From Catellatospora sp. IY07-71 (GTDB lineage Bacteria; Actinomycetota; Actinomycetes; Mycobacteriales; Micromonosporaceae): DNA of 64,000 bases. The notes beneath the pieces are model-generated. The model was not told the origin of the DNA and searched no databases. It saw nothing but the letters and a program-made list of their open reading frames with translations. Shown piece after piece: positions 7,729-52,664 of this stretch. Position 1 is the stretch's first letter. Every line of letters begins with the position of its first letter. Where the stretch lies: assembly GCF_018326265.1 (NCBI RefSeq), contig NZ_AP023360.1, positions 2,099,501 to 2,163,500 of the forward strand, read 5' to 3'. The position numbers and the translations under genes are program-made.

Positions 7729-7807
7729 GATCTTGCGTGAACTGTGGGGACGACACGCCTGAACCGGGCAAATCCCTAACAGTTCGCGCAAGATCGACGC
7801 GATCTTG
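7729..7807 (+). repeat. Palindromic repeat family A, copy 1 (79 bp)
   Basis: Starts GATCTTGCGTGAACTGTG, has a conserved CGACACGC centre, then AACAGTTCGCGCAAGATC and a tail ending GATCTTG. The long arms pair with each other, and the tail forms a second small palindrome. It begins 6 bp after the pckG stop in the sense orientation. Confidence 0.9.
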
Positions 7808-7815
7808 AAGCGCCG

Positions 7816-7869
7816 TGATGCCCGCAGCCCCGCCACCCGTTAACACGGGGGGTGGGGCTGCGGGCATCA
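7816..7869. promoter_or_regulatory. Long inverted repeat directly before the Rrf2 start
   Basis: Arms of 16 bp (TGATGCCCGCAGCCCC and its complement) enclose a GTTAAC centre with further imperfect pairing. The repeat ends 7 bp before the GTG of the regulator. It may be an autoregulatory operator, or a terminator for pckG; the position against the start codon favours a regulatory role. Confidence 0.5.
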
Positions 7870-7876
7870 TGGGGGT

Positions 7877-8332
7877 GTGCAGATCTCGGCTAGAGGCGAC
7901 TACGCGGTCCGGGCTTCCCTTGAGCTGGCGAACGCGTACCCGAACACCATCTCGGCGCAGGCCCTCGCCGACGCCCAGGGCCTGCCGCGCAAGTTCCTGG
8001 AGGCGGTGCTGGCGGACCTGCGGCGCAGCGGCGTCATCCACGCCGTGCGCGGCGCCGACGGTGGTTACAGCCTCAGCCTGCCGCCCTCCGAGGTCACCAT
8101 CGGCATGGTGCTGCGCGCCGTCGACGGGCCGCTGGCGGGCGTACGCGGGCACCGGCCCGAGCAGACCAGCTACACCGGCACCGCCAGCCACCTGCCGCTG
8201 GTGTGGGTCGCGGTGCGCTCGGCGGTGCGCAACGTCGTCGACGAGGTGACCCTGGCCCAGGCCGTCACCGGTCAGCTGCCGGAGGCGGTCCGTGATCTCA
8301 CCACGATCCCGGACGCCTGGCAGCCGCGCTGA
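7877..8332 (+). CDS. Rrf2 family transcriptional regulator lacking cysteines
   Basis: A 151-residue winged-helix protein. The N-terminus (MQISARGDYAVRASLELA) and the HTH plus wing (ALADAQGLPRKFLEAVLADL, then GADGGYSL) are typical of Rrf2 proteins. Fe-S members such as IscR, NsrR and RsrR use three cysteines in the C-terminal half. This protein has none at all, so it should not bind a cluster through cysteine and may sense something else or act as a plain repressor. The GTG at 7877 has no clear ribosome site; a long inverted repeat ends just upstream and could be its own operator. The next gene (prenyltransferase) starts 29 bp after the stop. Confidence 0.85.
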   Translation: MQISARGDYAVRASLELANAYPNTISAQALADAQGLPRKFLEAVLADLRRSGVIHAVRGADGGYSLSLPPSEVTIGMVLRAVDGPLAGVRGHRPEQTSYTGTASHLPLVWVAVRSAVRNVVDEVTLAQAVTGQLPEAVRDLTTIPDAWQPR

Positions 8333-8348
8333 TCCGCGCCAGCGGCGT

Positions 8349-8354
8349 TAGGCT
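8349..8354 (+). promoter_or_regulatory. Putative -10 box of the prenyltransferase gene
   Basis: TAGGCT lying 7 bp before the ATG at 8362, consistent with a leaderless message. A weak purine stretch (CCCAGG) next to the ATG could alternatively act as a ribosome site. Confidence 0.35.
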
Positions 8355-8361
8355 GCCCAGG

Positions 8362-9132
8362 ATGAAACTCCGCGACCTCGTCTACTCCGTGTACGAACGC
8401 CGCCTGAAGGCGTTGCTGGCCGATCAGCCGCGGCCACGTCATGTCGGCGTGGTCACCGACGGCAACCGGCGCTGGGCCCGCGAGATGGGCTACGTCGACC
8501 CCAACGACGGCCACCGGGTGGGCGCGGCGCGCATCAAGGAGCTGCTCAGCTGGTGCGACGAGGCGGGCATCGAGCACGTCACGCTCTACCTGCTGGCCAC
8601 CGACAACCTGCGCCGCCCGGCCGTGGAGCTGGATCCGCTGGTGCAGATCATCGTGGACCTGGCCACCGAGCTGGCCGAGGACGGCAACCCCTGGCAGTTG
8701 CGCATGGTCGGCGCGCTGGACCTGCTGCCCGCCGAGCCGGCGGCGGCGCTGAAGGCCGCGCAGGAGCGCACGGCCGGCCGCCACGGCGGCGCGAACGTCA
8801 ACTTCGCGGTCGGCTACACCGGCCGCCGGGAGATCGCCGACGCGGTCCGCTCGCTGCTGCAGGAGCACGTCAAGGCGGGCTCGACGCTGGAGGAGGTGGC
8901 CGAGCGGCTCGACGTCGAGCACATCGCCGAGCACCTCTACACGCGCGGCCAGCCCGACCCGGATCTGATCATCCGGACCAGCGGCGAGCAGCGGCTGTCC
9001 GGCTTCCTGCTGTGGCAGTCGGCCCACTCGGAGTTCTACTTCTGCGAGCTGAACTGGCCGGACTTCCGGCACGTGGACTTCCTGCGTGCGCTGCGGGCGT
9101 ACGCGGGACGCCAGCGCCGGTTCGGTGCCTGA
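8362..9132 (+). CDS. Short-chain cis-prenyltransferase (isoprenyl transferase)
   Basis: A 256-residue cis-prenyltransferase of the UppS fold. It shows the diphosphate-binding VVTDGNRRWAREMGY segment, the LYLLATDNLRRP region and the RTSGEQRLSGFLLWQSAHSE motif. It strongly resembles, from memory, M. tuberculosis Rv1086, which makes omega,E,Z-farnesyl diphosphate from geranyl diphosphate and IPP to feed decaprenyl phosphate synthesis for the wall. Note D-GNRRW rather than the D-GNGRW of classical UppS, as in Rv1086. It acts at the cytoplasmic face of the membrane. It follows the Rrf2 gene and precedes wall-associated secreted proteins. Confidence 0.9.
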   Translation: MKLRDLVYSVYERRLKALLADQPRPRHVGVVTDGNRRWAREMGYVDPNDGHRVGAARIKELLSWCDEAGIEHVTLYLLATDNLRRPAVELDPLVQIIVDLATELAEDGNPWQLRMVGALDLLPAEPAAALKAAQERTAGRHGGANVNFAVGYTGRREIADAVRSLLQEHVKAGSTLEEVAERLDVEHIAEHLYTRGQPDPDLIIRTSGEQRLSGFLLWQSAHSEFYFCELNWPDFRHVDFLRALRAYAGRQRRFGA

Positions 9133-9257
9133 CCCGTCGATCGCCGACGTCCGATTTTCCCGCCTTCTGACCTGCGCTCACGTTGGGATGGTGACCTGTT
9201 TCACGATCCGCGTGGTGGAGTTGGCACCGCGCCGGAATAAACGGCAGGGTCCCTGAC

Positions 9258-9284
9258 CAGCACCTTTGCTCCCCCAAGGTGCTG
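9258..9284 (+). promoter_or_regulatory. Hairpin in the leader of the SLT-like gene
   Basis: A 9-bp perfect stem (CAGCACCTT with AAGGTGCTG) around a C-rich 9-nt loop, about 25 bp before the GTG at 9310. It could be a leader hairpin or a terminator for the prenyltransferase transcript. No known riboswitch consensus, including c-di-AMP, was recognised. Confidence 0.4.
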
Positions 9285-9309
9285 CACCCCCCAACGAAGG
9301 GACCGACTC

Positions 9310-9969
9310 GTGTCGACACCCCGTCATGCCCTGCCGCGCCGCCGTCACCCGCTGGCGCGCCTGCTGGCCGTCCACTCCCGAAAGATCGCCTTGGGCGTGC
9401 TGTGCGCCGGTGTGCTCGGCGCCGCGGCGTACGCCGTCGCGGACACCGGGCCGCAGACACCCGCCACCGACCTGGCCGCCCGCGAGGCCGCCGCGGCCGC
9501 CGCCAACCGCGCCTACGACCGCGCCACGCCCTCGCCGAGTGTCAGCGCGTCGCCGACGGCCGGTCCGAGCCCGAGCGCCACGGCCGCCCGCCGCGCCGAG
9601 AAGGCGACGCCCTCGGCGAAGCCGACCGTGACGCGTACGACCGCCACGCCGACCTCGTGCAAGAGCTACTCGGGCAACCAGCTGGTCGCGTGCAGGCTGC
9701 TGCCGAGCTTCGGGTTCGCGTACAGCCAGATGAGCCCGCTGGTGAAGCTGTGGGACCACGAGAGCGGCTGGAACCACAGGGCCGAGAACTCCGGCTCCGG
9801 CGCGTACGGCATCCCGCAGGCGCTGCCCGGCGACAAGATGGCGAAGTTCGGCGACGACTGGCGGACCAATCCGGCCACTCAGATCAAGTGGGGCCTGGAC
9901 TACATCAAGAACCGCTACGACACCCCCGCCGGAGCCTGGAATCACTTCCAGGACAACAACTGGTACTGA
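9310..9969 (+). CDS. Secreted SLT-like/aggregation-promoting-factor domain protein
   Basis: A 219-residue protein with an N-terminal signal/anchor (about 25-45, KIALGVLCAGVLGAAAYAVA), then an Ala/Ser/Pro/Thr linker (50-115) and a C-terminal lysozyme-like domain (116-219). The domain carries LWDHESGWNHRAEN, with the likely catalytic Glu, and GAYGIPQALPGDKM. This family is usually annotated as transglycosylase SLT or aggregation-promoting factor C-terminal-like and is expected to act on peptidoglycan outside the membrane. The GTG has GAAGGGA 7 bp upstream. A paralogue of identical length, 219 residues, lies at 11687 on the other side of phoH. Confidence 0.8.
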   Translation: MSTPRHALPRRRHPLARLLAVHSRKIALGVLCAGVLGAAAYAVADTGPQTPATDLAAREAAAAAANRAYDRATPSPSVSASPTAGPSPSATAARRAEKATPSAKPTVTRTTATPTSCKSYSGNQLVACRLLPSFGFAYSQMSPLVKLWDHESGWNHRAENSGSGAYGIPQALPGDKMAKFGDDWRTNPATQIKWGLDYIKNRYDTPAGAWNHFQDNNWY

Positions 9970-9992
9970 TCTCATCTACGCACGGTGAGCAG

Positions 9993-10035
9993 CACCCACT
10001 CGGATGACCACGCTCGGGCATCATCCGAGTGGGTG
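9993..10035 (+). terminator. Strong hairpin after the SLT-like gene
   Basis: A perfect 15-bp stem (CACCCACTCGGATGA and its complement) with a 13-nt loop, 24 bp after the stop codon. There is no T tract, as is usual for high-GC actinobacterial terminators. Confidence 0.65.
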
Positions 10036-10112
10036 ATGGCCGTATCGGCGGATCGTCTGGCACATGCTAAAGACATGCTGGCCAAACGGGTTTTCTGCGG
10101 TTAGCGTGAGTC

Positions 10113-11405
10113 ATGGTCGATGTCCCGATACGAACGTACGTACTCGACACCTCCGTGCTGCTGGCCGATCCTGCTGCGATCCGCCGGTTCTCCGAGCACA
10201 ACGTCGTGCTGCCGCTCGTGGTCATCTCCGAGCTGGAGGGCAAGCGGCATCACCCGGAACTCGGCTGGTTCGCCAGGCAGTCCCTGCGGCTGCTCGACGA
10301 CCTGCGGGTACGGCACGGGAGGCTGGACGTACCACTGCCGGTGAACGACTCCGGCGGAACGCTGCGGGTGGAGCTGAACCACACCGATCCGCAGCTGCTG
10401 CCCAGCGGTTTCCGCAACGACACCAACGACGCGCGGATCCTGTCCGTGGCGCTGGGTCTGGCGGCCGACGGTCAGCTGGTGACCCTGGTCAGCAAGGACA
10501 TGCCGCTGCGGGTGAAGGCCGCCGCGGTGGGTCTGGCCGCCGACGAGTACCGCCATGACCAGGCGGTGGACCCGACGTGGTCCGGCCTGGCCGAGGTGGA
10601 CCTGCCGGACGCCGACATGGCCGCGCTCTACGCCGGCGAGGGCATCGACCTGGACGAGGCGGCCGGGCTGCCCGTCCACACCGGACTCATCCTGCACGCG
10701 GGCCGCGGCTCGGCGCTGGGGCGGGTGCACACCGACAAGACGGTGAAGCTGGTCCGCGGCGACCGGGAGGCGTTCGGCCTGCGCGGGCGCTCGGCGGAGC
10801 AGCGCATCGCGCTGGACCTGCTGCTGGACGACAGCATCGGCATCGTCTCGCTGGGCGGCCGGGCCGGCACCGGCAAGTCGGCGCTGGCCCTGTGCGCGGG
10901 CCTGGAGCAGGTGATGGAGCGCGGCAGGCACAAGAAGGTCATCGTGTTCCGCCCGCTCTACGCCGTCGGCGGCCAGGAGCTGGGCTACCTGCCCGGCAGC
11001 GAGGCGGAGAAGATGTCGCCCTGGGCGCAGGCGGTGTTCGACACGCTCGGCGCCCTGGTGCACGACAACGTACGCGACGAGGTGCTGCACCGCGGCATGC
11101 TCGAGGTGCTGCCGCTGACCCACATCCGCGGCCGCAGCCTGCACGACGCGTTCGTGATCGTGGACGAGGCGCAGTCGCTGGAACGTGGCGTGCTGCTGAC
11201 CGTGCTGTCGCGGATCGGCGCCGGGTCGCGGGTGGTGCTCACCCACGACGTGGCGCAGCGGGACAACCTGCGGGTGGGCAAGCACGACGGCATCACCGCG
11301 GTCATCGAGACGCTGAAGGGGCATCCGCTCTTCGCGCACGTGACCCTCACCCGTTCCGAGCGTTCCGCCATCGCCGAAGTGGTTACCGACCTCCTGGAGG
11401 AGTGA
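10113..11405 (+). CDS. PIN domain-PhoH ATPase (PhoH2 type)
   Basis: A 430-residue protein. Residues 5-130 form a PIN-like RNase domain ([13 protein letters not shown] with acidic metal ligands, later [11 protein letters not shown]). Residues 225-430 form a PhoH ATPase domain with Walker [14 protein letters not shown] (near 247) and the DEAQ box [13 protein letters not shown]. PhoH2 proteins have sequence-linked RNA unwinding and cleavage activity in mycobacteria (known for the family). The position matches Rv1095 in M. tuberculosis. The ATG is the first in frame; its leader is short. It lies between two paralogous secreted SLT-like proteins. Full length, with all motifs intact. Confidence 0.92.
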
Positions 11406-11409
11406 TTAG

Positions 11410-11428
11410 ACCCGATTAGCGGGTTTTT
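11410..11428 (+). terminator. Short terminator after phoH
   Basis: A 5-bp stem (ACCCG and CGGGT) with a 5-nt loop followed by four T, starting 5 bp after the stop codon. The stem is short, so confidence is modest. The remainder of 11429-11686 is a GC-rich leader in which no gene or known riboswitch was recognised. Confidence 0.45.
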
Positions 11429-11686
11429 GCGGTGTGATCGGGGCCACAGTCGCCCGTCCGGACGACGACAAGCCCCGGTCCACTGCGTAAAGGTGGGATC
11501 GAGCGCTCCGCGCCGCGGCTTCCTGGACGGGACCGCTGCGGCGCCCGGCACGAGCGCTCCCGGACCGTCCACCCCCGACCCCCGGGCGGGCGAACGGAGC
11601 AGGACCCGTAGGTGCGCAGCCCCTGGTGGCGCGCCCGAGGACCGCGGGTGCTCCGGCCGGAACCCCCACCGCCGAGAGGATCCCCC

Positions 11687-12346: not shown

Positions 12347-12352
12347 CGCCGG

Positions 12353-12979: not shown

Positions 12980-12984
12980 CGCCG

Positions 12985-13027
12985 TTGACGATACCCACTG
13001 GATAGTGGATAGTGATGCTATCCAGTG
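12985..13027. promoter_or_regulatory. Divergent promoter/operator for MerR and DUF4188 genes
   Basis: The arms CACTGGATAG (12996-13005) and CTATCCAGTG (13018-13027) form a perfect inverted repeat with 12-bp spacing; an extra GGATAGT direct copy lies in the spacer. TTGACG at 12985 is a plausible -35 box for the rightward gene. This layout fits MerR-type DNA distortion at a long spacer. Confidence 0.55.
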
Positions 13028-13045
13028 AAGGACGAGGGGGAAGTC

Positions 13046-13528: not shown

Positions 13529-13585
13529 CGGACAAACCACCCAGAACGGATAGTATCGGCAGCACCGGTCGACGGGGAGGGTGCT

Positions 13586-15349: not shown

Positions 15350-15378
15350 TCCGGCCCCGCCCGCGGCCCCACGGCCTT

Positions 15379-15453
15379 GATCGTCCGACTTGCCTGGCAA
15401 ACGGGCGTATCTTGGGCGCGCTTTCGCCCATGTGCCAGGCAAGTTGAGCGATC
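15379..15453 (+). repeat. Palindromic repeat family B, copy 2 (75 bp)
   Basis: Starts GATCGTCCGACTTGCC and ends GGCAAGTTGAGCGATC. The outer arms pair around CTTGCCTGGCA and TGCCAGGCAAG, and an inner pair is formed by GGGCG and CGCCC. It lies between the 3' end of the reductase gene (29 bp before it) and the 3' end of the convergent kinase gene. The flanks are C-rich on the left and strongly G-rich on the right. Confidence 0.85.
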
Positions 15454-15504
15454 TTGACGCCGCGCGGGGCCGCGCCGGGCCGGGCCGCGGGCGGCGGGGT
15501 CGGG

Positions 15505-21154: not shown

Positions 21155-21233
21155 GATCTTGCGTGAACTGTGGGTGCGACACGCCTATAACGGTCATATC
21201 CCCAACAGTTCACGCAAGATCGACGTGATCTTG
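21155..21233 (+). repeat. Palindromic repeat family A, copy 2 (79 bp)
   Basis: Same length and layout as the copy at 7729. It lies 33 bp after the glpX stop in the sense orientation. Flanks are CCCC-rich to the left and GGGG-rich to the right. Confidence 0.92.
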
Positions 21234-22238: not shown

Positions 22239-22317
22239 CAAGATCGCGTCGATCTTGCGCGAAGTGTTAGGGATACGACCGTTATGGGCGTGTCGCACCC
22301 ACAGTTCACGCAAGATC
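22239..22317 (-). repeat. Palindromic repeat family A, copy 3 (79 bp)
   Basis: Inverted relative to copies 1 and 2; reads in the sense direction of xseB, whose stop is 37 bp away. It sits between the convergent ends of the DMT gene and xseB. Confidence 0.92.
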
Positions 22318-23806: not shown

Positions 23807-24769
23807 GTGGTTGAGACTCCTCGCAAGCGTGTTCTGCTCGCCAAGCCCCGTGGTTACTGCGCCGGCGTCGACCGCGCCGTGCAGACCGTCGAAGAGGCGC
23901 TGAAGCTCTACGGCGCCCCGATCTACGTGCGCAAGGAGATCGTGCACAACAAGCACGTGGTGAGCACGCTGCAGGCCAAGGGCGCGATCTTCGTCGAGGA
24001 GAACGAGGAGGTCCCCGAGGGCTCGACCGTGATCTTCTCGGCGCACGGCGTCGCCCCGGTGGTGCACGACCAGGCCCGCGAGCGCAACCTCAAGGCGATC
24101 GACGCCACCTGCCCGCTGGTGACCAAGGTGCACCAGGAGGCCCGCCGCTTCGCCGCCGACGACTACGACATCCTGCTCATCGGCCACGAGGGCCACGAGG
24201 AGGTCATCGGCACCTCCGGCGAGGCCCCCGAGCACATCCAGCTCGTCGACGGCCCGGAGGGCGTGGCCAACGTCACCGTCCGCGACCCGAACAAGGTCGT
24301 CTGGCTGTCCCAGACCACGCTCAGCGTGGACGAGACCATGGAGACCGTGGCCCGGCTCAAGGAGAAGCTCCCGCTGCTCCAGTCGCCGCCCAGCGACGAC
24401 ATCTGCTACGCCACGCAGAACCGCCAGCAGGTCATGAAGCAGATCGCCCCCGACTGCGACGTGATCCTGGTCGTCGGCTCCCGCAACTCGTCGAACTCGG
24501 TCCGCATGGTCGAGGTCGCCGTGAACGCCGGCGCCCGCCAGGGCCACCTGATCGACTTCGCCCACGAGATCGACCCCGCCTGGCTGGAGGACGCCACCAC
24601 GGTCGGCCTCTCCTCCGGCGCGAGCGTCCCCGAGGAGCTGGTCACCCAGGTGCTGGCCCGCCTCGCCGAGCTCGGCTTCGCCGACGTCGAGGAGGTCGTC
24701 ACGGTCCAGGAGCGCCTGACCTTCTCCCTCCCCCAGGAACTCAAGCGCGACATGAAAGCCGCCCGCTAG
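23807..24769 (+). CDS. ispH: 4-hydroxy-3-methylbut-2-enyl diphosphate reductase
   Basis: A 320-residue IspH (LytB). It is an iron-sulfur enzyme making IPP and DMAPP in the last step of the MEP isoprenoid pathway. The three cluster cysteines are seen in [23 protein letters not shown] and [11 protein letters not shown]. The GHEGHEE, TQTTLS-like [10 protein letters not shown] and GSRNSSNS motifs are also present. The GTG at 23807 gives the usual N-terminus [12 protein letters not shown] and appears leaderless. It would supply substrate for the prenyltransferase at 8362. A family C repeat starts 2 bp after its stop codon. Confidence 0.96.
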
Positions 24770-24771
24770 AA

Positions 24772-24824
24772 AAGGAAGGGCACCTTCTTATCGTTTTCCG
24801 TAGAGGAAGGTGCCCTTCTTAACG
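24772..24824 (+). repeat. Palindromic repeat family C, copy 1 (53 bp)
   Basis: Starts AAGGAAGGGCACCTTCTTA, has a TTTTCCGTAG core and ends GGTGCCCTTCTTAACG. The GAAGGGCACCTTC and GAAGGTGCCCTTC halves are each palindromic and pair with each other. It begins 2 bp after the ispH stop, sense orientation. Confidence 0.92.
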
Positions 24825-25622: not shown

Positions 25623-25675
25623 CGTTAAGAAGGGCACCTTCTACTACGGAAAACGATAAGAAGGTGCCCTTCCTT
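25623..25675 (-). repeat. Palindromic repeat family C, copy 2 (53 bp)
   Basis: Almost the exact reverse complement of copy 1. Its AAGGAAGGG end directly abuts the TGA stop codon of rmuC (25676-25678), sense orientation. Confidence 0.92.
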
Positions 25676-26815
25676 TCATAGGAGTTCGGGGGCTTGGGGC
25701 TGGCGGGGGGCGATGTCGAGGGGCTTCTGTTCGGGGAGGTCGTCGCCGGTGACGCCGAGTTCGGTCATGCGGCGGGCGGTGACCAGGACGCGCTGTTCGA
25801 GGGAGCCGATGGCGGCGTTGTACGCCGTGACCGACCCGCTTAGCGACGAGCCGAGCTTGGTGAGGTGGCCGCTGACCGTGCCCAGCCGGGCGTAGAGCTG
25901 CTTGGCGAGTTCGTGGATCTGCAGGGCGTTGCGCGACAGCGCCTCCTGGCGCCAGGTGTAGGCGACCGTACGCAGCAGCGCCACCAGCGTCGACGGCGTG
26001 GCCAGCACGACGTTGCGGGCGAACGCGTGCTCCAGCAGCGCCGGGTCGCGCTGCAGCGCCGCGTCCAGGAACGGGTCGGCGGGCACGAACAGCACCACGA
26101 ACTCGGGCGTCGCCTCGAACGCCTGCCAGTACGCCCGCCCGGCCAGGATGTCCACATGTGACTTGAGGGCACGCGCGTGCGCGTCGAGGTACGTGTCGCG
26201 CTGGCGCTCGTCGCGGGACTCCAGCGCGGTCAGGTACGCGTCGAGCGGCACCTTCGCGTCGACCACCACGCTGCGCCCGCCGTGCAGGCGTACCACCAGG
26301 TCGGGGCGGACCACGGCGATGTCGGCGCTCACGTCGCGCAGCGCGGTGACCTGCTCGTCGAAGTCGCAGTGGCGCAGCATGCCGGCCGCCTCGACGATGC
26401 GGCGCAGCTGGTGCTCGCCCCACCGGCCGCGGACGTGCGAGGTGCGCAGCGCCGCGACCAGCTGGCTCGTCTCCATCCGCAGCGACGCGGACACCTCGGC
26501 CGAGGCCCGGACCTGCTCGCGCAGCTGGGCGTACGCGTCGACGCGGTCGTGCTCCATCTCGTTGACGCGCTGCTCGTAGCGCCGCAGCGTGTCGTGCAGG
26601 GGCGCCACGGCGCGGGCCACGGCCTCCTGCGACTGCGCGGTCGCCTCGAACGACAGCACGCGCATCGCCTGCTCCAGCCGCGCCTCCCCGGCCTGGGTGG
26701 CGTCGAGGGTCGCCTGCAGCCGGGCCGTCTCGGTCGCGGTGCTCGCGCGGGCGGCGAGCCAGCCCAGCCCACCGCCCGCGAGAAGGCACACGACCACGAT
26801 CGCGAGAGTCTCCAC
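25676..26815 (-). CDS. rmuC: DNA recombination protein RmuC
   Basis: A 379-residue protein with an N-terminal helix (LAIVVVCLLAGGGLGWLAA), a coiled-coil stretch (25-110) and then the RmuC nuclease-like domain. Visible motifs are GRWGEHQLRRIVEAAGM, VVVDAKVPLDAYL (Asp and Lys of the PD-(D/E)XK-like core) and FVVLFVPADPFLDAAL. RmuC limits certain sequence inversions and duplications; mechanism not settled. The ATG gives a natural membrane anchor. Third positions near the 3' end are strongly C-rich in the sense strand, next to repeat C2. Confidence 0.92.
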   Translation of the reverse strand: METLAIVVVCLLAGGGLGWLAARASTATETARLQATLDATQAGEARLEQAMRVLSFEATAQSQEAVARAVAPLHDTLRRYEQRVNEMEHDRVDAYAQLREQVRASAEVSASLRMETSQLVAALRTSHVRGRWGEHQLRRIVEAAGMLRHCDFDEQVTALRDVSADIAVVRPDLVVRLHGGRSVVVDAKVPLDAYLTALESRDERQRDTYLDAHARALKSHVDILAGRAYWQAFEATPEFVVLFVPADPFLDAALQRDPALLEHAFARNVVLATPSTLVALLRTVAYTWRQEALSRNALQIHELAKQLYARLGTVSGHLTKLGSSLSGSVTAYNAAIGSLEQRVLVTARRMTELGVTGDDLPEQKPLDIAPRQPQAPELL

Positions 26816-29620: not shown

Positions 29621-31185
29621 GCTGCTCTCCAGAGTCGGATCTGTGCGTACGAGCGCCACGGCCGCCAGCGTTCGGCATGCCGGGCGAGCGCCGCGGGGTC
29701 GTCGGGCAGGCCGAGCGCCTTCGCGCCGCGCCGGGTGCCCAGGTCGGTGGTCAGCAGGACGTCCGGGTCGCCGAGCGCGCGCAGCGCGACGTAGTCGGCG
29801 GTCCACGGGCCCACTCCCGGCAGCGCCAGCAGCGCCTCCCGGGTCGCTGCCCGGTCGCTGCCCGCGTCCAGCCGCAGCCCGTCCCGCACCGCCTCGGCCA
29901 GCGCCCGCAGCGTCCGCCGCCGCGCGACCGGCATCGCGAACACCTCATCCGGCAGCACCAGCACCTGCTCCGGCGTCGGAAACCCGGGCATCGTGCCCTG
30001 ACCTGGCTGCAGTTTCGGGGAAACTGCAGCCAGGCGGGCTGACATTCCCGCAGTTTCCCCGAAACTGCCGCTCCGTTCGGCGGCCGTGCGGGTTCCCGGA
30101 CGGTCGTCCAGGCCGGTGGCGGGGTGCCGGGTTGGTGCGGGCCGCCCGAGCTCGGCGTCGTCGAGGGCGGCTGCGGCGGCGCAGAGGCGGGCGAGGACGG
30201 TGCGGGCGCCGGAGACGCTGATCTGCTGGCCGACGACGGCGCGTACGGCCATCTCGAAGCCGTCCACGCTGCGCGGCAGGCGTACCCCCGGCTCGGCGGC
30301 GACCGCCGCGCTCAGCGCGGGGTCGGCGCCCAGCACCGTGTCGACCGCCGCCGGGTCGGCGTCCAGGTCCAGCAGCCGCCGGCAGCGCGCCACCGCCGGG
30401 GTCAGGTCGCGCACGTCGCTCAGGTGCAGCAGCGCTGCGACGTGCCCGTCCTCGGGCCACAGGGTGGCCGTCGCCGGACCGTGCGGCAGGCGCAGCGCCC
30501 GCGTGTAACGCCCGTCGCGGTACTCGTCCACGCCCGCGATCGTGCGCATGGCGAGGAACCCGAACAGCGACTGCGCGTGCAGCGGCGCGCGGTAGCTCAG
30601 CTTCAGCGCCACCGTGCCGTCCACCGGCGCGTCCTCGCGCCGCAGCGCCGACGGCGCACACCCGTACACCTCGCGGAACGTGTCGTTGAACTGCCGGATG
30701 CTGCCGAACCCCGCCGCGAACGCGATCTCCGACAGGCTCAGCCCCGTCTTGCCGATCAGCGTCTTGGCCGTCTGCGCCCGCTGGGTCCGGGCCAGCGCCA
30801 GCGGCCCCGCCCCCAGCTCCTCGGCCAGCAGCCGGTGCAGATGCCGCTCGGTGTACCCGAGCCGCGACGCCAGCTCCGGCACCCCGCCCCGGTCCACCAC
30901 CCCGTCCCCGATCAGCCGCACGGCCCGCGCCGTCACATCGGCCCGGCTGTCCCACTGCGCCGACCCCGGCACCGCATCCGGCGCACACCGCTTGCACGCC
31001 CGGAACCCGCTCCGCGCCGCCGCCGCCGCACTCGGAAAGAACCGGCAGTTCTCCACCTTCGGCGTCTTCGCCGGACACGACGGCCGACAGTAAATCCCCG
31101 TCGACGTCACCCCGGTCCAAAACACCCCGTCAAACCGCGAATCCCGACTGCTAACCGCCCGGTAATACCTATCCACGCCCCCCAC
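29617..31185 (-). CDS. Ada-type regulator fused to AlkA DNA glycosylase
   Basis: A 522-residue protein. Residues 1-75 are the Ada zinc/methyl-acceptor domain (Cys33, Cys37, Cys64, Cys67). Residues 85-185 are an AraC HTH (VPELASRLGYTERHLHRLLA). The rest is an AlkA glycosylase: N-terminal domain about 195-310, helix-hairpin-helix LPGVGPWTADYVALRALG, catalytic Asp in LTTDLGTRRG. It senses methyl phosphotriesters, probably activates its own operon, and excises 3-alkyladenine. About 40 residues (355-397) interrupt the glycosylase core and include two GCAGTTTC palindromes (30002-30068); the frame is intact. Confidence 0.92.
   Translation of the reverse strand: MGGVDRYYRAVSSRDSRFDGVFWTGVTSTGIYCRPSCPAKTPKVENCRFFPSAAAAARSGFRACKRCAPDAVPGSAQWDSRADVTARAVRLIGDGVVDRGGVPELASRLGYTERHLHRLLAEELGAGPLALARTQRAQTAKTLIGKTGLSLSEIAFAAGFGSIRQFNDTFREVYGCAPSALRREDAPVDGTVALKLSYRAPLHAQSLFGFLAMRTIAGVDEYRDGRYTRALRLPHGPATATLWPEDGHVAALLHLSDVRDLTPAVARCRRLLDLDADPAAVDTVLGADPALSAAVAAEPGVRLPRSVDGFEMAVRAVVGQQISVSGARTVLARLCAAAAALDDAELGRPAPTRHPATGLDDRPGTRTAAERSGSFGETAGMSARLAAVSPKLQPGQGTMPGFPTPEQVLVLPDEVFAMPVARRRTLRALAEAVRDGLRLDAGSDRAATREALLALPGVGPWTADYVALRALGDPDVLLTTDLGTRRGAKALGLPDDPAALARHAERWRPWRSYAQIRLWRAA
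30002..30068. repeat. Repeat family D: two palindromes inside the Ada-AlkA gene
   Basis: The first hairpin has 15-bp perfect arms (30002-30016 and 30020-30034) around GGG. The second has 8-bp perfect arms (30050-30057 and 30061-30068) around CCC. Both share the 19-bp core GCAGTTTC-NNN-GAAACTGC, which recurs at 52746. They encode an extra loop in the glycosylase domain. Confidence 0.85.
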
Positions 31186-31244: not shown

Positions 31245-31323
31245 GATCTTGCGTGAACTGTGGGTACGACACGCGCTAACCGGGCAAAAGGGCAACAGTT
31301 CGCGCAAGATCGACGCGATCTTG
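31245..31323 (+). repeat. Palindromic repeat family A, copy 4 (79 bp)
   Basis: Same length and layout as the other full copies. It lies between the divergent starts of the Ada-AlkA gene and ychF, so unlike the others it does not follow a stop codon. C-rich DNA to the left, G-rich DNA to the right. Confidence 0.92.
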
Positions 31324-38529: not shown

Positions 38530-38608
38530 GATCTTGCGTGGGTTGTGGGTGCGACACGCGCGAAACGGGCATATCCCTAACACTTCGCGCAAGATCGATG
38601 TGATCTTC
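38530..38608 (+). repeat. Palindromic repeat family A, copy 5 (79 bp)
   Basis: 79 bp, 39 bp after the mutT stop in the sense orientation; 2 bp from the end of the DUF559 gene on the other strand. Slightly diverged (GGTTGTGG instead of AACTGTGG), with CACTT opposite, so pairing is partly lost. Confidence 0.9.
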
Positions 38609-38610: not shown

Positions 38611-39447
38611 TCAGTGCCATGGGCTGAGGAGTGGGCGGAGCGTCGTGATGATGCGGTGGGGGTGGGCGTAGAGGTCGCGGTCGGTGAAGTGGCGCATGCG
38701 CCAACCCTGGGCGGCCAGCCAGTTGCCGCGGAACCGGTCATGGCGCATGCGGTCGTGAGTCAGGTGGGTCTGGCCGTCGTACTCGACGCCGACCTTGAGT
38801 TCCTCGTAGCCGAGGTCGAGGCGGAAGCGGCCGACCTCGAACTGTGGCTCGGGACGCGGCAGGCCGCCGTCGACGATGACCAGCCTGAGCTGGCTCTCCT
38901 GGCGGCACTCGGCGCGGCCGTCGGCCAGGGGCACCAGTTCGCGGGCCTGGCACACGCCGCGCAGGCCGCCGTGGGTGACGAGTTCCGCCGCCAGCAGGTC
39001 GGGAGTGACCGCGTCGGCGCGCAGCGCGGCGTCGAGGATGGGCAGGGCGTCGATGCGGCGGACCGTGCGGGCCAGGGTCACGGCGACACGCTCGGGCGGC
39101 AGCAGCGGGACGCCGTGCAGCCAGCTCGGCTCCGGGAGCGGGAGCACGGACTCGCCCGCTCGGACGCCGGTCAGCCTCGGGTGGGCGTACCCATGCGGGA
39201 TCGTGACGTGGATCAGCGGGGAGGGTGACACGCCGAAGCCGTACCAGGTCGCGGCGGTGGGCCCGGACAGCCTGGCCTCTGCCGGCAGCAGCGCGAACAG
39301 CGCCTGCACCCGGCTGATCTCGTCGGTGTCGAGCGCGTAGACGCCGCGCCAGGGTCGGCGCAGGTGCCCACGGTGGTGCGCCGTCCTCAGGTTCTGAACC
39401 GAGATGCCCTCAGCGCTGAGCTGCCGGAACGTGGCGGGAACAGACAT
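38611..39447 (-). CDS. DUF559 domain protein (Vsr-like endonuclease fold) with AbiEi-like N-terminus
   Basis: A 278-residue protein. The N-terminal part (1-60, TFRQLSAEGISVQNLRTAH and RPWRGVYALDT) resembles the winged N-domain of AbiEi-type antitoxins. The C-terminal part (170-278) is DUF559, with FRLDLGYEELKVGVEYDGQTH and HDRFRGNWLAAQGWRM, a PD-(D/E)XK/Vsr-like nuclease fold. No toxin partner gene is next to it. The ATG at 39447 starts with MSVPATFRQLS; an imperfect hairpin lies just upstream. The gene is enclosed by inverted copies of repeat A (38530 and 39569). Such genes are common accessory genes in actinomycetes; function unproven. Confidence 0.82.
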   Translation of the reverse strand: MSVPATFRQLSAEGISVQNLRTAHHRGHLRRPWRGVYALDTDEISRVQALFALLPAEARLSGPTAATWYGFGVSPSPLIHVTIPHGYAHPRLTGVRAGESVLPLPEPSWLHGVPLLPPERVAVTLARTVRRIDALPILDAALRADAVTPDLLAAELVTHGGLRGVCQARELVPLADGRAECRQESQLRLVIVDGGLPRPEPQFEVGRFRLDLGYEELKVGVEYDGQTHLTHDRMRHDRFRGNWLAAQGWRMRHFTDRDLYAHPHRIITTLRPLLSPWH

Positions 39448-39502: not shown

Positions 39503-39568
39503 TGTGGACAACCCCACCGTTGTGTACAACCCCCTGATCAAGCCGCCCCTGTGCTATGGGCTTGGTTC

Positions 39569-39647
39569 AAGATCGCATTGATCTTGCGCGAAGTGTTAGG
39601 GATATGACCGCTTTGTGCGTGTCGTACCCACAGTTCGCGCAAGATCG
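39569..39647 (-). repeat. Palindromic repeat family A, copy 6 (79 bp)
   Basis: 79 bp, inverted with respect to copy 5. It is sense-oriented downstream of sdhB, whose stop is 14 bp away. Confidence 0.92.
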
Positions 39648-43366: not shown

Positions 43367-43525
43367 CTCTTCGTCGCTCCCTGAGCTACCAGTGGGGAAC
43401 ACGTGCGTGGATCAATCACGGACACGTTACGCCGAAAGATGTCGATCATGTGACCGGGGACACTGTGACGTACGGCATCGCCACCCAGCCGTCCCCGGAC
43501 ACGGATCACGCGCCGACCCCCGCTT

Positions 43526-43600
43526 GATCACCTGTCTTGCCTGGCAAACGGGCGAATTGCGAGCGCGGATACGCCCATTTGCCAGGCAAGTCAGACGATC
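43526..43600 (-). repeat. Palindromic repeat family B, copy 3 (75 bp)
   Basis: 75 bp, GATC at both ends, CTTGCCTGGCAAACGGG and CCCATTTGCCAGGCAAG as arms. Judged by its core (GGGCGTATC on the minus strand) it points in the sense direction of tldE, whose stop is 14 bp away. Confidence 0.85.
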
Positions 43601-43613
43601 AAGAAGGCGCCCG

Positions 43614-46373: not shown

Positions 46374-46379
46374 ACCCTA
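46374..46379 (-). promoter_or_regulatory. Putative -10 box of leaderless tldD
   Basis: TAGGGT on the minus strand with a 7-bp gap to the ATG at 46366; no ribosome site in the gap. Confidence 0.5.
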
Positions 46380-46441
46380 GTCCGATGGCTCCCGTCGCGT
46401 CGCCCGCGTGCCGTGATCGCCCCGCTCGCGGCACTCGCGTT

Positions 46442-46459
46442 GATCGTCCGACTTGCCTG
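46442..46459. repeat. Fragment of repeat family B
   Basis: GATCGTCCGACTTGCCTG matches the first 18 bp of copy 2 at 15379; the rest of the element is missing. It lies upstream of tldD. 46460-46633 then carries the leader and promoter region of the ABC operon, with no gene. Confidence 0.65.
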
Positions 46460-46633
46460 CCGGAGCAACCGTCGCCGACACTCTTTCGGCTGCTCAGCCG
46501 CGGAATCTGTCCGATCGGCCGGGCGGCGTTAGCCAGTTGTTACGTACCGCGTCTGTTGCCGACACGCCGGGGTCCGTTACCTTTTGGCGCACGCGTATGA
46601 AAGTTTTCTTCATCGGCAGGGACGGGAGCGGCA

Positions 46634-47683: not shown

Positions 47684-48744
47684 CGGAACCTCTGCTCAAG
47701 GTGCGCGGGCTGACCAAGCACTTCGCCGTGCGCCAGGGAGCGGCCGGCGGCAAGGCGCTGGTGCGCGCCGTCGACGGTCTCGACCTGGACGTGCGCCCGG
47801 GCGAGACGCTCGGCCTGGTCGGCGAGTCCGGCTGCGGCAAGACCACCACCGGCCGGATGCTGGTCCGGTTGCTGGACCCGACGGCCGGCTCGATCGAGTT
47901 CGAGGGCCGCGACATCACCCGGCTGGGCCGCTCGGCGATGCGCCCGCTGCGTCAGGACCTGCAGATCATCTTCCAGGACCCGTACTCGTCGCTGAACCCG
48001 CGGCACACGGTGGGCAAGATCGTGGCGATGCCGCTGGAGGTCAACGGCATCAAGCCGCCCGGCGGGATCAAGGCCCGGGTGCAGGAGCTGCTGGAGCTGG
48101 TCGGGCTCAACCCCGAGCACTACAACCGCTTCCCGCACGAGTTCTCCGGCGGCCAGCGCCAGCGCATCGGCATCGCCCGCGCGCTCGCGCTGCGCCCGAA
48201 GCTGATCGTCGCCGACGAGCCGGTGTCCGCGCTGGACGTGTCGATCCAGGCGCAGGTCGTCAACCTGCTGCGCGACCTGCAGCGGGAGCTGGACCTGGCG
48301 TTCGTGTTCATCGCGCACGACCTGGCCGTGGTGCGCCACTTCAGCCGCCGGGTCGCGGTGATGTACCTGGGGAAGGTCGTCGAGGTCGGCGACCGCGCCG
48401 ACATCTACGAGCGGCCGCGGCACCCGTACACCAAGGCCCTGCTCTCGGCGGTGCCGGACGTGGCCGCGTTCGGCGAGCCCCGGCAGCGGATCCGGCTCAC
48501 CGGCGACGTGCCGACCCCGCTCAACCCGCCGTCGGGCTGCCGCTTCCGCACCCGCTGCTGGAAGGCGCAGGACGTCTGCGCGACCGAGGAGCCCACCCTG
48601 ATCGCCCGCGACGGCAGCGCCCAGGCGGTGGCCTGCCACTTCCCGGAGCCTGCGGAGGCGAGCAGCAGGCTCAGCCCCGAGGAGGTGGCGTCGGTGCCCA
48701 TCCCGGCGCAGGCCGCGGCGCATGTTTCGGAGGTGACCGAGTGA
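47680..48744 (+). CDS. Oligopeptide ABC transporter ATP-binding protein (DppF type)
   Basis: A 354-residue ATPase with Walker [30 protein letters not shown], signature [19 protein letters not shown], Walker [15 protein letters not shown] and [11 protein letters not shown]-terminal oligo_HPY domain with [14 protein letters not shown] is present. It pairs with the first ATPase as a heterodimer energising import. GTG start overlapping the previous stop by 4 bp, and the next gene overlaps its end by 4 bp. Confidence 0.94.
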
Positions 48745-49742
48745 GTCTGTCGCAGATCGAGACCGACCCGGCGGGCGTGGACGCCACGGCGGTGCCGGTC
48801 GCGCCGGAGCGCGGCATGGTCGGGCGCTCGCCCGGCCGGCTGGCCTGGGAGCGGCTGCGCCGCAACCGCACCGCGATGGTCAGCGGCTGGATCATGCTGT
48901 TCCTGGTGGTGCTGGGCGTGTCCGCGCCGCTGGTCGAGCTGCTCTACGGCATCGGGCCGTACGAGCAGTTCCAGGACAAGATCGCCAACAACAGCCTGCC
49001 GCTGGGCTACCTCGGCGGCATCTCCGGCGAGCACTGGTTCGGCCTGGAGCCGCGGCTGGGCCGCGACGTCTTCATCCGCCTGGTGTACGGCCTGCGTACC
49101 TCGCTGCTGATCGCGACCTCGGCCGCCGTGCTGACCACGGCGATGGGCATCGTGCTCGGCATCGTCGCGGGCTACCTGGGCGGCTGGATCGACGCGGTGA
49201 TCAGCTGGGTCATCGACTTCGCACTGGCGCTGCCGTTCCTCGTCTTCGCGCTGGCCGTGATGCCGACGGTGACCGCGCGCTTCTACGGCCCACGGGACGA
49301 CATCGACGTGCCGTTCCGGATCGTGGTGATGATCCTGCTGTTCGCCCTCTTCGGCTGGACGGGCACGGCCCGGCTGGTCCGCGGGCAGGTGGTCTCGCTG
49401 CGCGAGCGCGAGTTCGTCGAGGCGGCGCGGGCCAGCGGCGCGGGGCTGGGGCACATCCTGTTCCGGCAGCTGCTGCCGAACCTGTGGGCGCCGATCCTGG
49501 TCACCTTCTCGCTGGCGGTGCCGGGCTACATCACCGGCGAGGCGGCGCTGTCCTTCCTGGGCATCGGCATCGTCGACCCCACCCCCGACTTCGGCGTGAT
49601 GATCAGCAAGAGCCTGGAGTTCATCGACGGCGATCCCATGTATCTGATCCTCTCCGGCACGGTGATCTTCCTGCTGGTGCTCACCTTCAACCTTTTCGGG
49701 GACGGCCTGCGCGACGCGCTCGACCCCAAGTCTTCGCGGTAG
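48741..49742 (+). CDS. Oligopeptide ABC transporter permease (DppC type)
   Basis: A 333-residue permease with an N-terminal helix ([19 protein letters not shown]), a periplasmic loop ([20 protein letters not shown], then [17 protein letters not shown]) and the BPD domain with about five further helices. The EAA coupling loop is [24 protein letters not shown]. Third gene of the operon; GTG start overlaps the previous stop by 4 bp. Confidence 0.93.
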
Positions 49743-49752
49743 GAGGCGGGGC

Positions 49753-50739
49753 ATGCTGCGTTTCCTGATCAAACGGATGCTGCTCGGCGCGCTGACCCTG
49801 TTCGCCGTCAGCCTGGTCGCGTTCGGCATGTTCTTCATGCTGCCCCGCGACGCGGTCGCGACCATGTGCGAGAAGAACTGCAACGCCGAACGGCTCGACC
49901 GGATGCGCGACGAGCTGGGCCTCAACGACCCGCTGCTCGACCAGTACACCGGCTACATGAAGGGCATCTTCGTGGGCCGCGACCTGGGCAGCGCGCAGGG
50001 CGGGCGGTGCGACGCGCCGTGCCTGGGCTACTCGTACACCAACGGCGAGGAGGTCACCGACATCTTCGCCCGGGTCATCCCGGTGACGCTGAGCATCGTC
50101 ATCCCGGCCGCGATCCTGTGGCTGGGGCTCGGCATCGGGCTGGGCATGCTGTCGGCGCTGAAACGCGGCACCGTCTTCGACCGGCTGGCCATCGGCTTCT
50201 CGCTGGTCGGCGCCTCGATGCAGCTCTACTTCGTGGGCGGCATCCTGCTGATCGTGTTCGTGTACACGCTGAAGATCCTGCCGCCGCCGCGCTACGTGTC
50301 GCTGTGGGAGAGCCCGCTGGACTGGGCCGCCGGCCTGGTGCTGGCGTGGGTGGCCCTGGCCTTCCTGTTCTCCGCCGTCTACGCGCGGCTGTCCCGCGCG
50401 CAGATGCTGGAGACGCTGGCCGAGGACTACGTGCGCACCGCGCGGGCCAAGGGCCTGACCAAGTCGAGGGCGTACGGGCGGCACGCGCTGCGCGCGGCGA
50501 TCACGCCGATCGTGACCATCGCCGGGCTCGACGTCGGCGGCGCGCTGGGCGGCACGGTGATCACCGAGACCACCTTCGGCATCCAGGGCCTGGGCCGCAC
50601 CGCCGTGGAGGCGGTCCGGCTGGGCGACCTCTCGACGATCATGGCGACCGTGCTCATCTCCGCGGTCTTCATCGTCGTCGCCAACATCGTGGTCGATCTG
50701 CTCTACGCGGTCATCGACCCGCGGGTGCGGCTGAGTTAG
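49753..50739 (+). CDS. Oligopeptide ABC transporter permease (DppB type)
   Basis: A 328-residue permease. First helix MLLGALTLFAVSLVAFGMFF, then an external loop of about 70 residues, then five helices. The EAA loop is EDYVRTARAKGLTKSRAYGRH. The outer loop contains four cysteines (ATMCEKNCN and GRCDAPCLG), unusual for a DppB permease. Ribosome site GGAGG before the ATG at 49753. It is the fourth gene; the order (D, F, C, B, A) is the mirror of the common dppABCDF order. Confidence 0.93.
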   Translation: MLRFLIKRMLLGALTLFAVSLVAFGMFFMLPRDAVATMCEKNCNAERLDRMRDELGLNDPLLDQYTGYMKGIFVGRDLGSAQGGRCDAPCLGYSYTNGEEVTDIFARVIPVTLSIVIPAAILWLGLGIGLGMLSALKRGTVFDRLAIGFSLVGASMQLYFVGGILLIVFVYTLKILPPPRYVSLWESPLDWAAGLVLAWVALAFLFSAVYARLSRAQMLETLAEDYVRTARAKGLTKSRAYGRHALRAAITPIVTIAGLDVGGALGGTVITETTFGIQGLGRTAVEAVRLGDLSTIMATVLISAVFIVVANIVVDLLYAVIDPRVRLS

Positions 50740-50789
50740 CGGCCAACCTGTGATCGACGGGGTATGGCGAAATCCGTCGATCATTGCTA

Positions 50790-50795
50790 CATAAT
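50790..50795 (+). promoter_or_regulatory. Possible internal promoter (-10) for the binding-protein gene
   Basis: CATAAT in an AT-rich patch (ACATAATTTGTAGG) about 45 bp before the ATG at 50839. A separate promoter for the binding protein would give it higher expression than the other subunits. No clear -35 box. Confidence 0.35.
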
Positions 50796-50838
50796 TTGTA
50801 GGTTTCCTTCACATCTGGCACGAGTGACTGGAGTGGAT

Positions 50839-52578
50839 ATGAGAACGAGAGCGGCACTGGCCGCCGGCGGCGCGCTTGCGCTCGTCGTGGGCCTGAGCGC
50901 CTGCACGGAGAACACCGGCGGCAGCTCGGGTGTCGACCCCAACCGGCAGTCCAGCGGGGTCATCGCCACCGACCCCAAGGACTCGCTCGGCCCGGCGCCG
51001 GAGGTCCCGGGGGCCGTCAAGGGCGGCACCCTCACCATCCTGCGCGAGACGAAGATCTCGCACCTGGACCCGCAGCGCATCTACAACTTCGTGGGCCTCA
51101 ACACCGCTCCGCTCTTCGCCCGCTTCCTGACCACCTGGAAGGACGACGGCAAGGGCAAGGTCACCCTGGTCGGCGACCTGGCCGAGACCCCCGGCGTGAA
51201 CGTCAACAACGACTGCAAGGTCTGGGAATTCAAGATCAAGAGTGGGGTGAAGTTCGAGGACGGCAGCCCGATCACCTCCAAGGAGATCGCGTACGGCATC
51301 GCCCGCTCGTTCAACCCCGACCTCGCCGGCGGCCCCACCTACATCCAGGAGTGGCTCGCCGACACCGCGGCGTTCGACACCAAGTGGGACTTCAAGGCCA
51401 ACAAGACGTCGCTGCCGCCGGGCCTGACCACGCCGGACGACAAGACGCTGCGCTTCGAGTTCGCCAAGCCGCACTGCGACCTGCCGTTCGCCGCGTCGCT
51501 GCCGTCGACCGCGCCGCTGCCGCCGGCCAAGGACACCGGTGTCGACCTGGACGGCGCGCCGTTCTCGTCCGGGCCGTACAAGCTGACCAAGAACACCGCC
51601 GGTGTCGAGCTGGTCTTCGAGAAGAACGAGCACTGGGACCCGGCCACCGACCCGGTGCGCCACCAGTACCCGGACAAGTTCGTCTGGCAGTTCGGCCCGG
51701 ACGCCACCGCGCAGACCGACCGGATCATCGCCGACGGTGCCGACGCCGCGACGCTGGGCTGGAACGGCGTGGCCACCTCCCGGGTGGCGAAGGTGTCCGG
51801 TGACAGCGCGCTCAAGGGCCGCACGCTGCTGGAGCCGACGCCGAGCGCGAACCGGCTCACCATCAACACCCAGCGGGTCACCGACCTGGCCGTGCGCCAG
51901 GCGCTCAACTACGCGATCGACCGCGAGGGCCTGATCAAGGCGCTGGGCGGCGACTACGTCGCGTCCCCGATGACCACCCTGATGCCGCCGTCGACCCTGG
52001 GCTTCAAGTCGTTCGACGTGTACCCGGCGGGCAAGAACGGCGACGTCGAGAAGGCCAAGGCGACGCTGGCTGGCAAGACCCCGGAGCTGGTGCTGGTCAT
52101 CAGTGACGGCTCGGGCGACCAGGAGATCGGCACCCAGCTGAAGAACAACCTGGAGAAGGCCGGCTTCAAGATCACGGTCCGCACCACCCCCTCGGACAGC
52201 AAGCTGGACGAGACCAAGAAGAAGGACAACGACTGGGACCTGTACCTGGACTCCTGGGCGGCGGACTGGCCGAGCGGCGCGGCGATCCTGCCGGTGCTCT
52301 TCGACGGCCGCAGCATCAAGCCGGAGGGCAACACCAACACGTCCTACATCAACAACGACGCGATCAACGCGGAGTTCGACCGCGTGCTGGCGCTCGACCC
52401 GGCCAAGCAGGCCGAGGAGTGGGCGAAGATCGACGAGCGGATCATGAAGGAGCTCGCCCCGGCGGTGCCCCTCTACGCCGACGTCGCCTTCTACATCCAC
52501 GGCACCAAGGTGGGCGGTCTCTACATCGACAGCATCTTCGGCTACCCCGCCTTCACCCGCGCGTTCGTCAAGCAGTGA
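50839..52578 (+). CDS. Oligopeptide ABC transporter substrate-binding lipoprotein (family 5)
   Basis: A 579-residue lipoprotein. Signal peptide with lipobox LVVGLSAC (Cys23), then a linker. The SBP_bac_5 domain has GGTLTILRETKISHLDPQRI, WEFKIKSGVKFEDGSPITSK, DLAVRQALNYAIDREGLIKA and a DLYLDSWAADWPSG segment in the C-terminal lobe. It captures peptides or a similar ligand outside the membrane and delivers it to the two permeases. The ATG at 50839 has GGAG 6 bp upstream. Last gene of the operon. A family A repeat starts 19 bp after the stop. Confidence 0.94.
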   Translation: MRTRAALAAGGALALVVGLSACTENTGGSSGVDPNRQSSGVIATDPKDSLGPAPEVPGAVKGGTLTILRETKISHLDPQRIYNFVGLNTAPLFARFLTTWKDDGKGKVTLVGDLAETPGVNVNNDCKVWEFKIKSGVKFEDGSPITSKEIAYGIARSFNPDLAGGPTYIQEWLADTAAFDTKWDFKANKTSLPPGLTTPDDKTLRFEFAKPHCDLPFAASLPSTAPLPPAKDTGVDLDGAPFSSGPYKLTKNTAGVELVFEKNEHWDPATDPVRHQYPDKFVWQFGPDATAQTDRIIADGADAATLGWNGVATSRVAKVSGDSALKGRTLLEPTPSANRLTINTQRVTDLAVRQALNYAIDREGLIKALGGDYVASPMTTLMPPSTLGFKSFDVYPAGKNGDVEKAKATLAGKTPELVLVISDGSGDQEIGTQLKNNLEKAGFKITVRTTPSDSKLDETKKKDNDWDLYLDSWAADWPSGAAILPVLFDGRSIKPEGNTNTSYINNDAINAEFDRVLALDPAKQAEEWAKIDERIMKELAPAVPLYADVAFYIHGTKVGGLYIDSIFGYPAFTRAFVKQ

Positions 52579-52597
52579 GGTGACCCCCTCACCCGGC

Positions 52598-52664
52598 GAT
52601 CTTGCACGGACGGTGGGTACGACACGCCCCAAAAGGGCATAACGGCAACACTTCACGCAAGATC
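52598..52664 (+). repeat. Palindromic repeat family A, copy 7 (67 bp, lacks tail)
   Basis: Arms GATCTTGCACGG and CACGCAAGATC with the conserved GGGTACGACACGC centre; the 12-bp tail of the other copies is missing. Outer GGC/GCC extend the palindrome to 52595-52667. Sense-oriented, 19 bp after the binding-protein stop. Confidence 0.8.

Follow-up and report, generated by a model that had tools for sequence, protein, structure and literature searches.

A repeated 67-nucleotide hairpin behind stop codons of Catellatospora sp. IY07-71 probably marks transcript ends

A stretch of 64,000 nucleotides (nt) from the 8.6-Mb single-contig genome of Catellatospora sp. IY07-71 (the window) contains seven copies of a palindromic element, Family A. 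Its constant part is a hairpin of 67 nt, GATCTTGC...GCAAGATC; in most copies a third arm, GATCTTG, comes after a spacer of 5 nt. We found the element at 115 places of the genome, preferentially behind stop codons. We think it probable that this repeat was amplified in the lineage and that its resident copies act as the 3'-end hairpin of the preceding gene. The best reading is a repeat superfamily similar to the repetitive extragenic palindromes (REPs), whose resident copies are U-poor and often two-way transcript-end hairpins.

Anatomy and genomic placement

The 115 places come from a covariance model built from 36 copies, which gave 149 hits in the genome with at most 150 candidates scored, and 115 were also recovered by the exact end pattern; both counts would miss copies outside the window whose ends are broken. 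Perfect 8-bp termini, GATCTTGC and GCAAGATC, bound all 115 copies, as the terminal inverted repeats of a miniature inverted-repeat transposable element (MITE) would. The end-to-end length was 67 nt in 113 copies and 68 nt in the other 2. From 5' to 3', the element consists of GCGNC, GATCTTGCGYGAACTGT, GGG, KRYGACACG, CCCG, 4 free nt, CGGG, CATAT, CCC, TA, ACAGTTCRCGCAAGATC and GNCGC, and then GATCTTG. Two copies with low matches were left out of the arm counts. All of the remaining 113 have GATC at both ends, and 77 carry the third arm at the exact spacing with at most one mismatch; four shifted controls gave 0, and a mirror arm on the 5' side was seen in 3. At least three T occurred in the 8 nt behind the stem of 64/113 copies, versus 15/113 on the opposite strand and a background of 13%, and their source is GATCTTG, not a T run. 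We do not claim the third arm as a U-tract, the T-rich arm being no commoner in sense tandem copies. Most matches between copies within the genome were 85–94% alike. The copies were unevenly spread, with 29 in 2.0–3.0 Mb, 27 in 7.5–8.5 Mb, and 12 in 4.5–7.5 Mb.

Gene calls came from a codon-usage script that had been trained on this genome and was applied unchanged to other species and genera. The majority of the copies (110/115) were intergenic, including 49 in convergent gaps, 37 sense and 16 antisense in tandem gaps, and 8 in divergent gaps; the 5 in called open reading frames (ORFs) were left out of the gap counts. The control comprised 87 gaps of at least 90 nt (40 tandem, 28 divergent, and 19 convergent) in nine stretches not chosen for copies outside the window. 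Compared with these, divergent gaps were depleted of copies (8/110 versus 28/87, p = 1e-5) and convergent gaps were enriched (p = 0.0009). Of the 53 copies in tandem gaps, 44 were closer to the stop than to the start (p = 1e-6), and the ratio of sense to antisense copies was 37:16 (p = 0.0055). A bias in position and orientation relative to stops, suggested by the initial annotation with a genome-wide covariance-model search as its check, is thus borne out. As in a canonical intrinsic terminator, a stable predicted hairpin stands near the stop, 79 of the 110 intergenic copies lying within 40 nt of one and usually at about 18–30 nt. In convergent gaps the 5' end was closer to its own stop than the 3' end in 37 cases versus 10 (34 versus 15 when the third arm is included). 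The flank 5' of the element was C-rich (C 0.47–0.62, G 0.12–0.21) and the 3' flank G-rich in all four gene arrangements, while gaps without the element had little C/G skew.

Within the window, the pattern GATCTTGC-N{40,60}-GCAAGATC matched 7 times, versus a mean of 0.00 in 100 dinucleotide shuffles. A covariance-model scan with filters off gave the seven copies 67–104 bits, and the next sites, reverse-strand shadows aside, had at most 31 bits, the best two that were inspected being other hairpin families. Rfam had 0 matches in the window at gathering score. Predicted fold energies of the copies were −33 to −50 kcal/mol, with up to 29 pairs, and RNA folding z-scores spanned −8.5 to −2.2. The first copy (7729..7807, +; hairpin 7729–7795; third arm GATCTTG 7801–7807; z −8.4) begins 6 nt behind pckG, and the second (21155..21233, +; hairpin 21155–21221; third arm 21227–21233; z −7.7) 33 nt behind glpX. 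The third (22239..22317, −; hairpin 22251–22317; third arm 22239–22245; z −8.5) is convergent, 37 nt behind the xseB frame. The fourth (31245..31323, +; hairpin 31245–31311; third arm 31317–31323; z −5.1) is divergent, upstream of a YchF-type GTPase gene. The fifth (38530..38608, +; hairpin 38530–38596; third arm GATCTTC 38602–38608) is convergent, 39 nt behind a NUDIX (mutT-like) gene, and has the weakest fold (z −2.2; 5 of 200 shuffles as good). The sixth (39568..39646, −; hairpin 39580–39646; third arm 39568–39574; z −6.4) lies 15 nt behind an sdhB-like gene, and the seventh (52598..52664, +; z −3.7; 1 of 200 shuffles as good), a hairpin without a third arm, is convergent, 19 nt behind an SBP_bac_5 gene.

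All seven copies thus stand where the initial annotation placed them, and none is spurious. Its 79-bp length for six copies resolves into the 67-nt hairpin, 5 nt and the third arm, the copy at 52598 having 67 nt, and its range of 6–39 bp behind a stop agrees with the sense distances from stop to GATC given above. Its gene names agree with Pfam (PEPCK_GTP, FBPase_glpX, Exonuc_VII_L, NUDIX, Fer2_3/Fer4_8 for the sdhB-like gene, and SBP_bac_5), xseB being identified by its reading frame only. Two statements need amendment. Six copies do follow a stop in sense orientation, but those at 22239, 38530 and 52598 are between convergent genes, so each also follows a stop on the opposite strand. Moreover, the loop does not vary as a whole: GGG and the GACAC side of the internal loop change little or not at all, and the most freely varying part is the tip, some 4 nt long. 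An uptake-sequence reading was rejected: on the + strand of the window, to which the count was confined, GATCTTG occurs 14 times, mostly within elements. Between two copies, 38611–39447 (−) encodes a protein with a sub-threshold match to the restriction-endonuclease-like MTES_1575 (36.2 bits, cut-off 38.2).

Orthologous sites, arm pairing, and other hairpins

Three synteny blocks were compared across ten relatives. For 16 sites of this genome, 100 orthologous gaps were readable, of which 45 had an identically directed element (one of them, in G001, recognized only through a loose match), none had it inverted, and 55 lacked it. Over all loci examined, the 95 orthologous element pairs, which are linked by common descent rather than independent events, had the same orientation in 95/95 cases with 0 inverted, and 60 pairs were without the element. 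These 60 element-less sites matched 24–33 of 64 letters (one matched 39), which leaves almost no decayed intermediates at orthologous sites. In 41 orthologous pairs beyond the nearest species, whose gene flanks share about 87% identity, no change was seen in 328 cells of the right terminus; the left terminus changed at 0–5% per position and GGG not at all, while the GACAC letters changed at 0–10%, the tip at 24–71%, and the right flank at 46–80% per position. The termini were kept while the flanks no longer align. Left-arm conservation is biased, loci L031–L110 having been retrieved by an exact left-arm pattern; the right arm lies outside that pattern and is unbiased. Site-specific interiors were common to species at 31245 of the window and at 4139784 and 8050689 of the genome. 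The glpX site held the element only in the two nearest species. A single GATCTTG was found where sisters hold the whole element at the pckG end in G001 and G003 (L203, L208) and at the 2476098 site in G007 (L250/L251), which a deletion from arm 1 to arm 3 could explain; a target-site duplication outside the element was not established.

Conserved arms without compensatory changes, an outcome that the initial annotation had set against its own proposal, were found among the copies of this genome, for which RNAalifold gave 0 of 19 pairs changed on both sides, but not between orthologues. Here, two-sided changes that keep the pair occurred at 8 sites for pair −2/68, at 5 for 9/57, at 2 each for −5/71 and 29/39, and at 1 each for six further pairs, among 56 sites with an orthologue. 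Pair −2/68, the outermost variable one, was a standard pair in only 46/113 copies. The 8 terminal pairs were invariant in 113/113, a sequence constraint beyond the need of a plain terminator. Considering the sparse covariation, the termini look constrained as sequence and not as structure alone, and pairing is under constraint at some positions. G-T outnumbered A-C in the arms (112 versus 24), a trend reversed outside the core; the excess was rejected as RNA proof and kept as a hint.

Other hairpins occur at these gene ends. In 47 convergent gaps with the element, the best hairpin outside it had a median of −5.6 kcal/mol and 19% were below −25, whereas in 40 convergent gaps without it the median was −39.4 kcal/mol and 90% were below −25; a convergent gap with the element usually has no second strong hairpin. 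When orthologous convergent gaps without the element were folded, 18/18 held a hairpin of −25.0 kcal/mol or stronger, a count that omits orthologous gaps above 500 nt and G001 at 2476098 (present by the loose pattern, absent by pair scoring). As a base rate, 91% of 156 convergent gaps of 11 species held a hairpin below −25, with 65% for tandem and 46% for divergent gaps, and strong hairpins were found in convergent gaps of all 11 species. At the 22239 gap, the eleven species carry this element (2), CGCAACTCTTAAAGAGTCGCGG types (4), GACTTGCCAGGCAA or GTTGCCGGGCAA types (4), and GCAGTTTCGGGGAAA (1). Six clusters of repeated hairpins in the compared gaps had 46, 34, 29, 27, 11, and 8 members, only 4/155 of them divergent; the largest merges two families, and the second is this element. 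Behind the pckG copy, a separate strong hairpin at 7819–7869 occurs with changed letters in all 11 species.

Other hairpin families were also noticed in the window. A second family with ACTTGCCTGGCAA arms (478–578, 15368–15468, and 43523–43613) has CTTGATC or GATCTTG at its borders and members in 10/11 genus genomes within the three blocks. A third, with AAGAAGGGCACCTTC arms (24766–24824, 25623–25681, and 61778–61899), occurs in all 11 species, and 27/29 of its block members are convergent. At 29991–30071 there is a GCAGTTTCGGGGAAAC-type hairpin (31 bits by the covariance model), with seed words of the same family near 52750, and at 3885–3954 a hairpin of TTTGCTCTGCACACAAAGACGC and its inverse, similar hairpins occupying other sites in sister species. 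Species without the element have GATCATGAAGTTA-arm hairpins with a GACACACCG core (L242, L243, and L245 in G008 and G009, and L237), perhaps distant relatives of the element with altered stems.

Distribution and explanations weighed

The exact 37-base pattern had 0 matches in the named species genomes, a collection that may omit the source genome, and a degenerate left-arm pattern found 87 stretches there, all in Catellatospora. Within the genus 7/11 genomes were element-rich, and G001, G005, G008, and G009 had 6, 0, 0, and 1 model hits. Weak model hits in other genera had the ends in common and differed in their interiors. In the family Micromonosporaceae, the exact-ends pattern was present in 134/300 genomes and 17/44 genera (the reversed control in 1 genome), the same termini enclosing differing interiors. 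Twelve genera of the family had a genome with at least 10 copies, and the highest counts were 187 (G085), 166 (G088), 139 (G079), and 125 (G117). In the class, 37/394 genomes had the pattern and 3 had the control; outside Micromonosporaceae, genomes with at least 4 copies were all in family f31 (39, 37, 7, 6, and 4). Genus g60 had GCGACAC at about the same stem position, as judged by eye. A survey of 69 loci, Catellatospora and duplicates excluded, counted the 46 with at least 11 terminal pairs, 2 of them at contig edges; 3 copies of G235 were far from called genes. The 33 hairpin copies from other Micromonosporaceae genera were convergent (14), tandem (15), or divergent (4), and 23/33 were within 40 nt of a stop.

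As a transcript-end hairpin, the element might work as follows. Once the transcript has passed the stop codon and a short C-rich, G-poor stretch, the hairpin would fold, and RNA polymerase would halt at it by a U-poor (I-shaped) or a Rho-assisted route; alternatively, the hairpin might stop 3' exonucleases and so fix the mature end. Transcript-end formation could accordingly mean termination or 3'-end protection. In convergent gaps the near-symmetric stem could work for both strands. A sequence-specific factor may read the GATCTTGC/GCAAGATC ends together with the GACAC internal loop; this could be a host protein that binds RNA or DNA, or the former copying machinery of the element. Past multiplication would have relied on a copying system recognizing the ends. 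Neither a copying enzyme nor a binding protein was found, no search for ORFs bracketed by element ends having been run.

Several results weigh against this putative role. Eight copies are divergent, 16 are antisense in tandem gaps, and 5 lie within called ORFs, and in f31 only 3/8 copies are within 40 nt of a stop. A third arm with at least three T occurred in 15/36 sense tandem copies versus 12/16 antisense ones, so it is not sense-enriched, and the invariance of the ends is stricter than a hairpin requires. The residual pieces of gap beside the element are short and little able to fold. Since 90% of element-less convergent gaps hold a strong hairpin, 18/18 is not much above the base rate, and in tandem gaps another hairpin below −25 was present in 44% with the element versus 54% without it. 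At pckG the element precedes the second hairpin in 6/11 species, and this hairpin is present in 11/11, so the element is not the sole terminator there. The glpX gap is shorter than 25 nt and hairpin-free in 9/10 relatives; glpX thus manages without the element.

A selfish REP/MITE-like repeat is an unlikely alternative, in which a recombinase reading the GATCTTGC ends spread the copies and these survive where they are least harmful, behind stops, so that position reflects tolerance. It would account for 115 near-identical copies at unrelated places, for the terminal inverted repeats, for the patchy occurrence in the genus (7/11 genomes rich, four with 0–6 model hits), for a glpX site filled only in the two nearest species, and for the lone GATCTTG at pckG (G001, G003) and 2476098 (G007), as if lost between direct repeats. 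However, resident copies are constrained at single sites, which is unexpected for neutral passengers, decayed copies are nearly absent at orthologous sites and in the window, and element-less orthologous convergent gaps bear other hairpins. Moreover, no Y1 transposase follows copy number: Y1_Tnp was found in 6/11 genus genomes, with none in copy-rich G002 and G007 and 3 in copy-poor G001 (the REP-associated tyrosine transposase, RAYT, was not modeled separately), and Y1 was rejected as the copying enzyme.

We give slightly less credence to a DNA-level site, at which a nucleoid, topology, or recombination protein would bind the GATCTTGC palindrome as duplex or cruciform and placement would reflect supercoil domains. 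Gyrase at REPs and bacterial interspersed mosaic elements has been proposed as a link to such domains, and positive supercoils gather in convergent gaps. Termini invariant in 113/113 copies and common to 17 genera despite changing interiors would suit such a site, but the sense bias in tandem gaps, the constraint on an asymmetric loop, and the G-T over A-C asymmetry of the arms, which is more RNA-like though reversed outside the core, argue against it. Finally, gene conversion among copies, by which homogenization would mimic orthologous constraint with no need of function, fits the 85–94% likeness of most own-genome hits but is highly improbable, because it would have wiped out the site-specific interiors that species have in common at 31245, 4139784, and 8050689, and because only parts of the element are invariant.

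We retain the transcript-end hairpin as the preferred reading. A wider proposal, which we advance tentatively and would not yet bet on, is that GATCTTGC-bracketed hairpins are family-wide, exchangeable transcript-end cassettes: one conserved actinobacterial factor would read the ends (in some genera the GACAC loop too), genera would vary stem and tip, and families would replace each other at orthologous 3' ends, by turnover rather than point mutation. The element is an example of repeats whose copy number suggests selfishness although selection maintains them at individual sites, and also of sister species having unrelated hairpin families at identical gene ends. Its defined 8-nt word may serve as bait for a reader protein, and the copies form a natural set of 3'-end parts from an antibiotic-producing group whose transcript-end signals are little known.

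Relation to known repeats and transcript ends

The initial annotation proposed a MITE/REP-like element working as a 3'-end or terminator structure. The 3'-end role remains the best reading and the likeness holds as a description, but the element has neither the GTAG/CGTC tag nor a Y1 transposase tracking its copies, and no target-site duplication was established. A superfamily of this kind, with fixed ends over many genera and exchange with other hairpins, was not found described in the open-access literature searched, mostly judged from listings.

REPs, in the available text of PMC3733652, are palindromes tagged with GTAG or CGTC, with stems of 5–13 bp, for which roles in termination and mRNA stability have been proposed. 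Like them, the element is a high-copy, intergenic, lineage-restricted palindrome with tagged ends; unlike them, it has GATC on both sides (113/113), at least 17 stem pairs, GATCTTGC at both ends, no RAYT tracking copy number, and a size of 67 nt (113/115) or 68 nt (2) instead of 20–40 bp. About 11% of Escherichia coli REPs lie within 15 nt of stop codons, according to the part of PMC12306157 available. The element is likewise close to stop codons, but usually about 18–30 nt away, and its sites are kept between species.

The excerpted term-seq data for the actinomycete Streptomyces clavuligerus (72.5% GC) list 353 structured ends that are poor in U and 182 that have U, the U-rich class showing enrichment of C upstream and of G downstream (PMC8269248). 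So many structured ends lacking a U-tract in a GC-rich actinomycete make a U-poor mode plausible. The element resembles the I-shaped ends of that study in its strong GC-rich stem without a clear U-tract; it differs in belonging to a repeat family with fixed ends, a feature not described in that excerpt. As repeated intergenic stem-loops, the copies also fall in the general class of the stem-loop sequence families outlined in the available portions of PMC2267715 and PMC1590033. The kind is known, namely REP-like intergenic palindromes and U-poor end hairpins, and the repeats of PMC3733652, so far as its available text describes them, are the nearest frame, though tags, size, and transposase are not matched.

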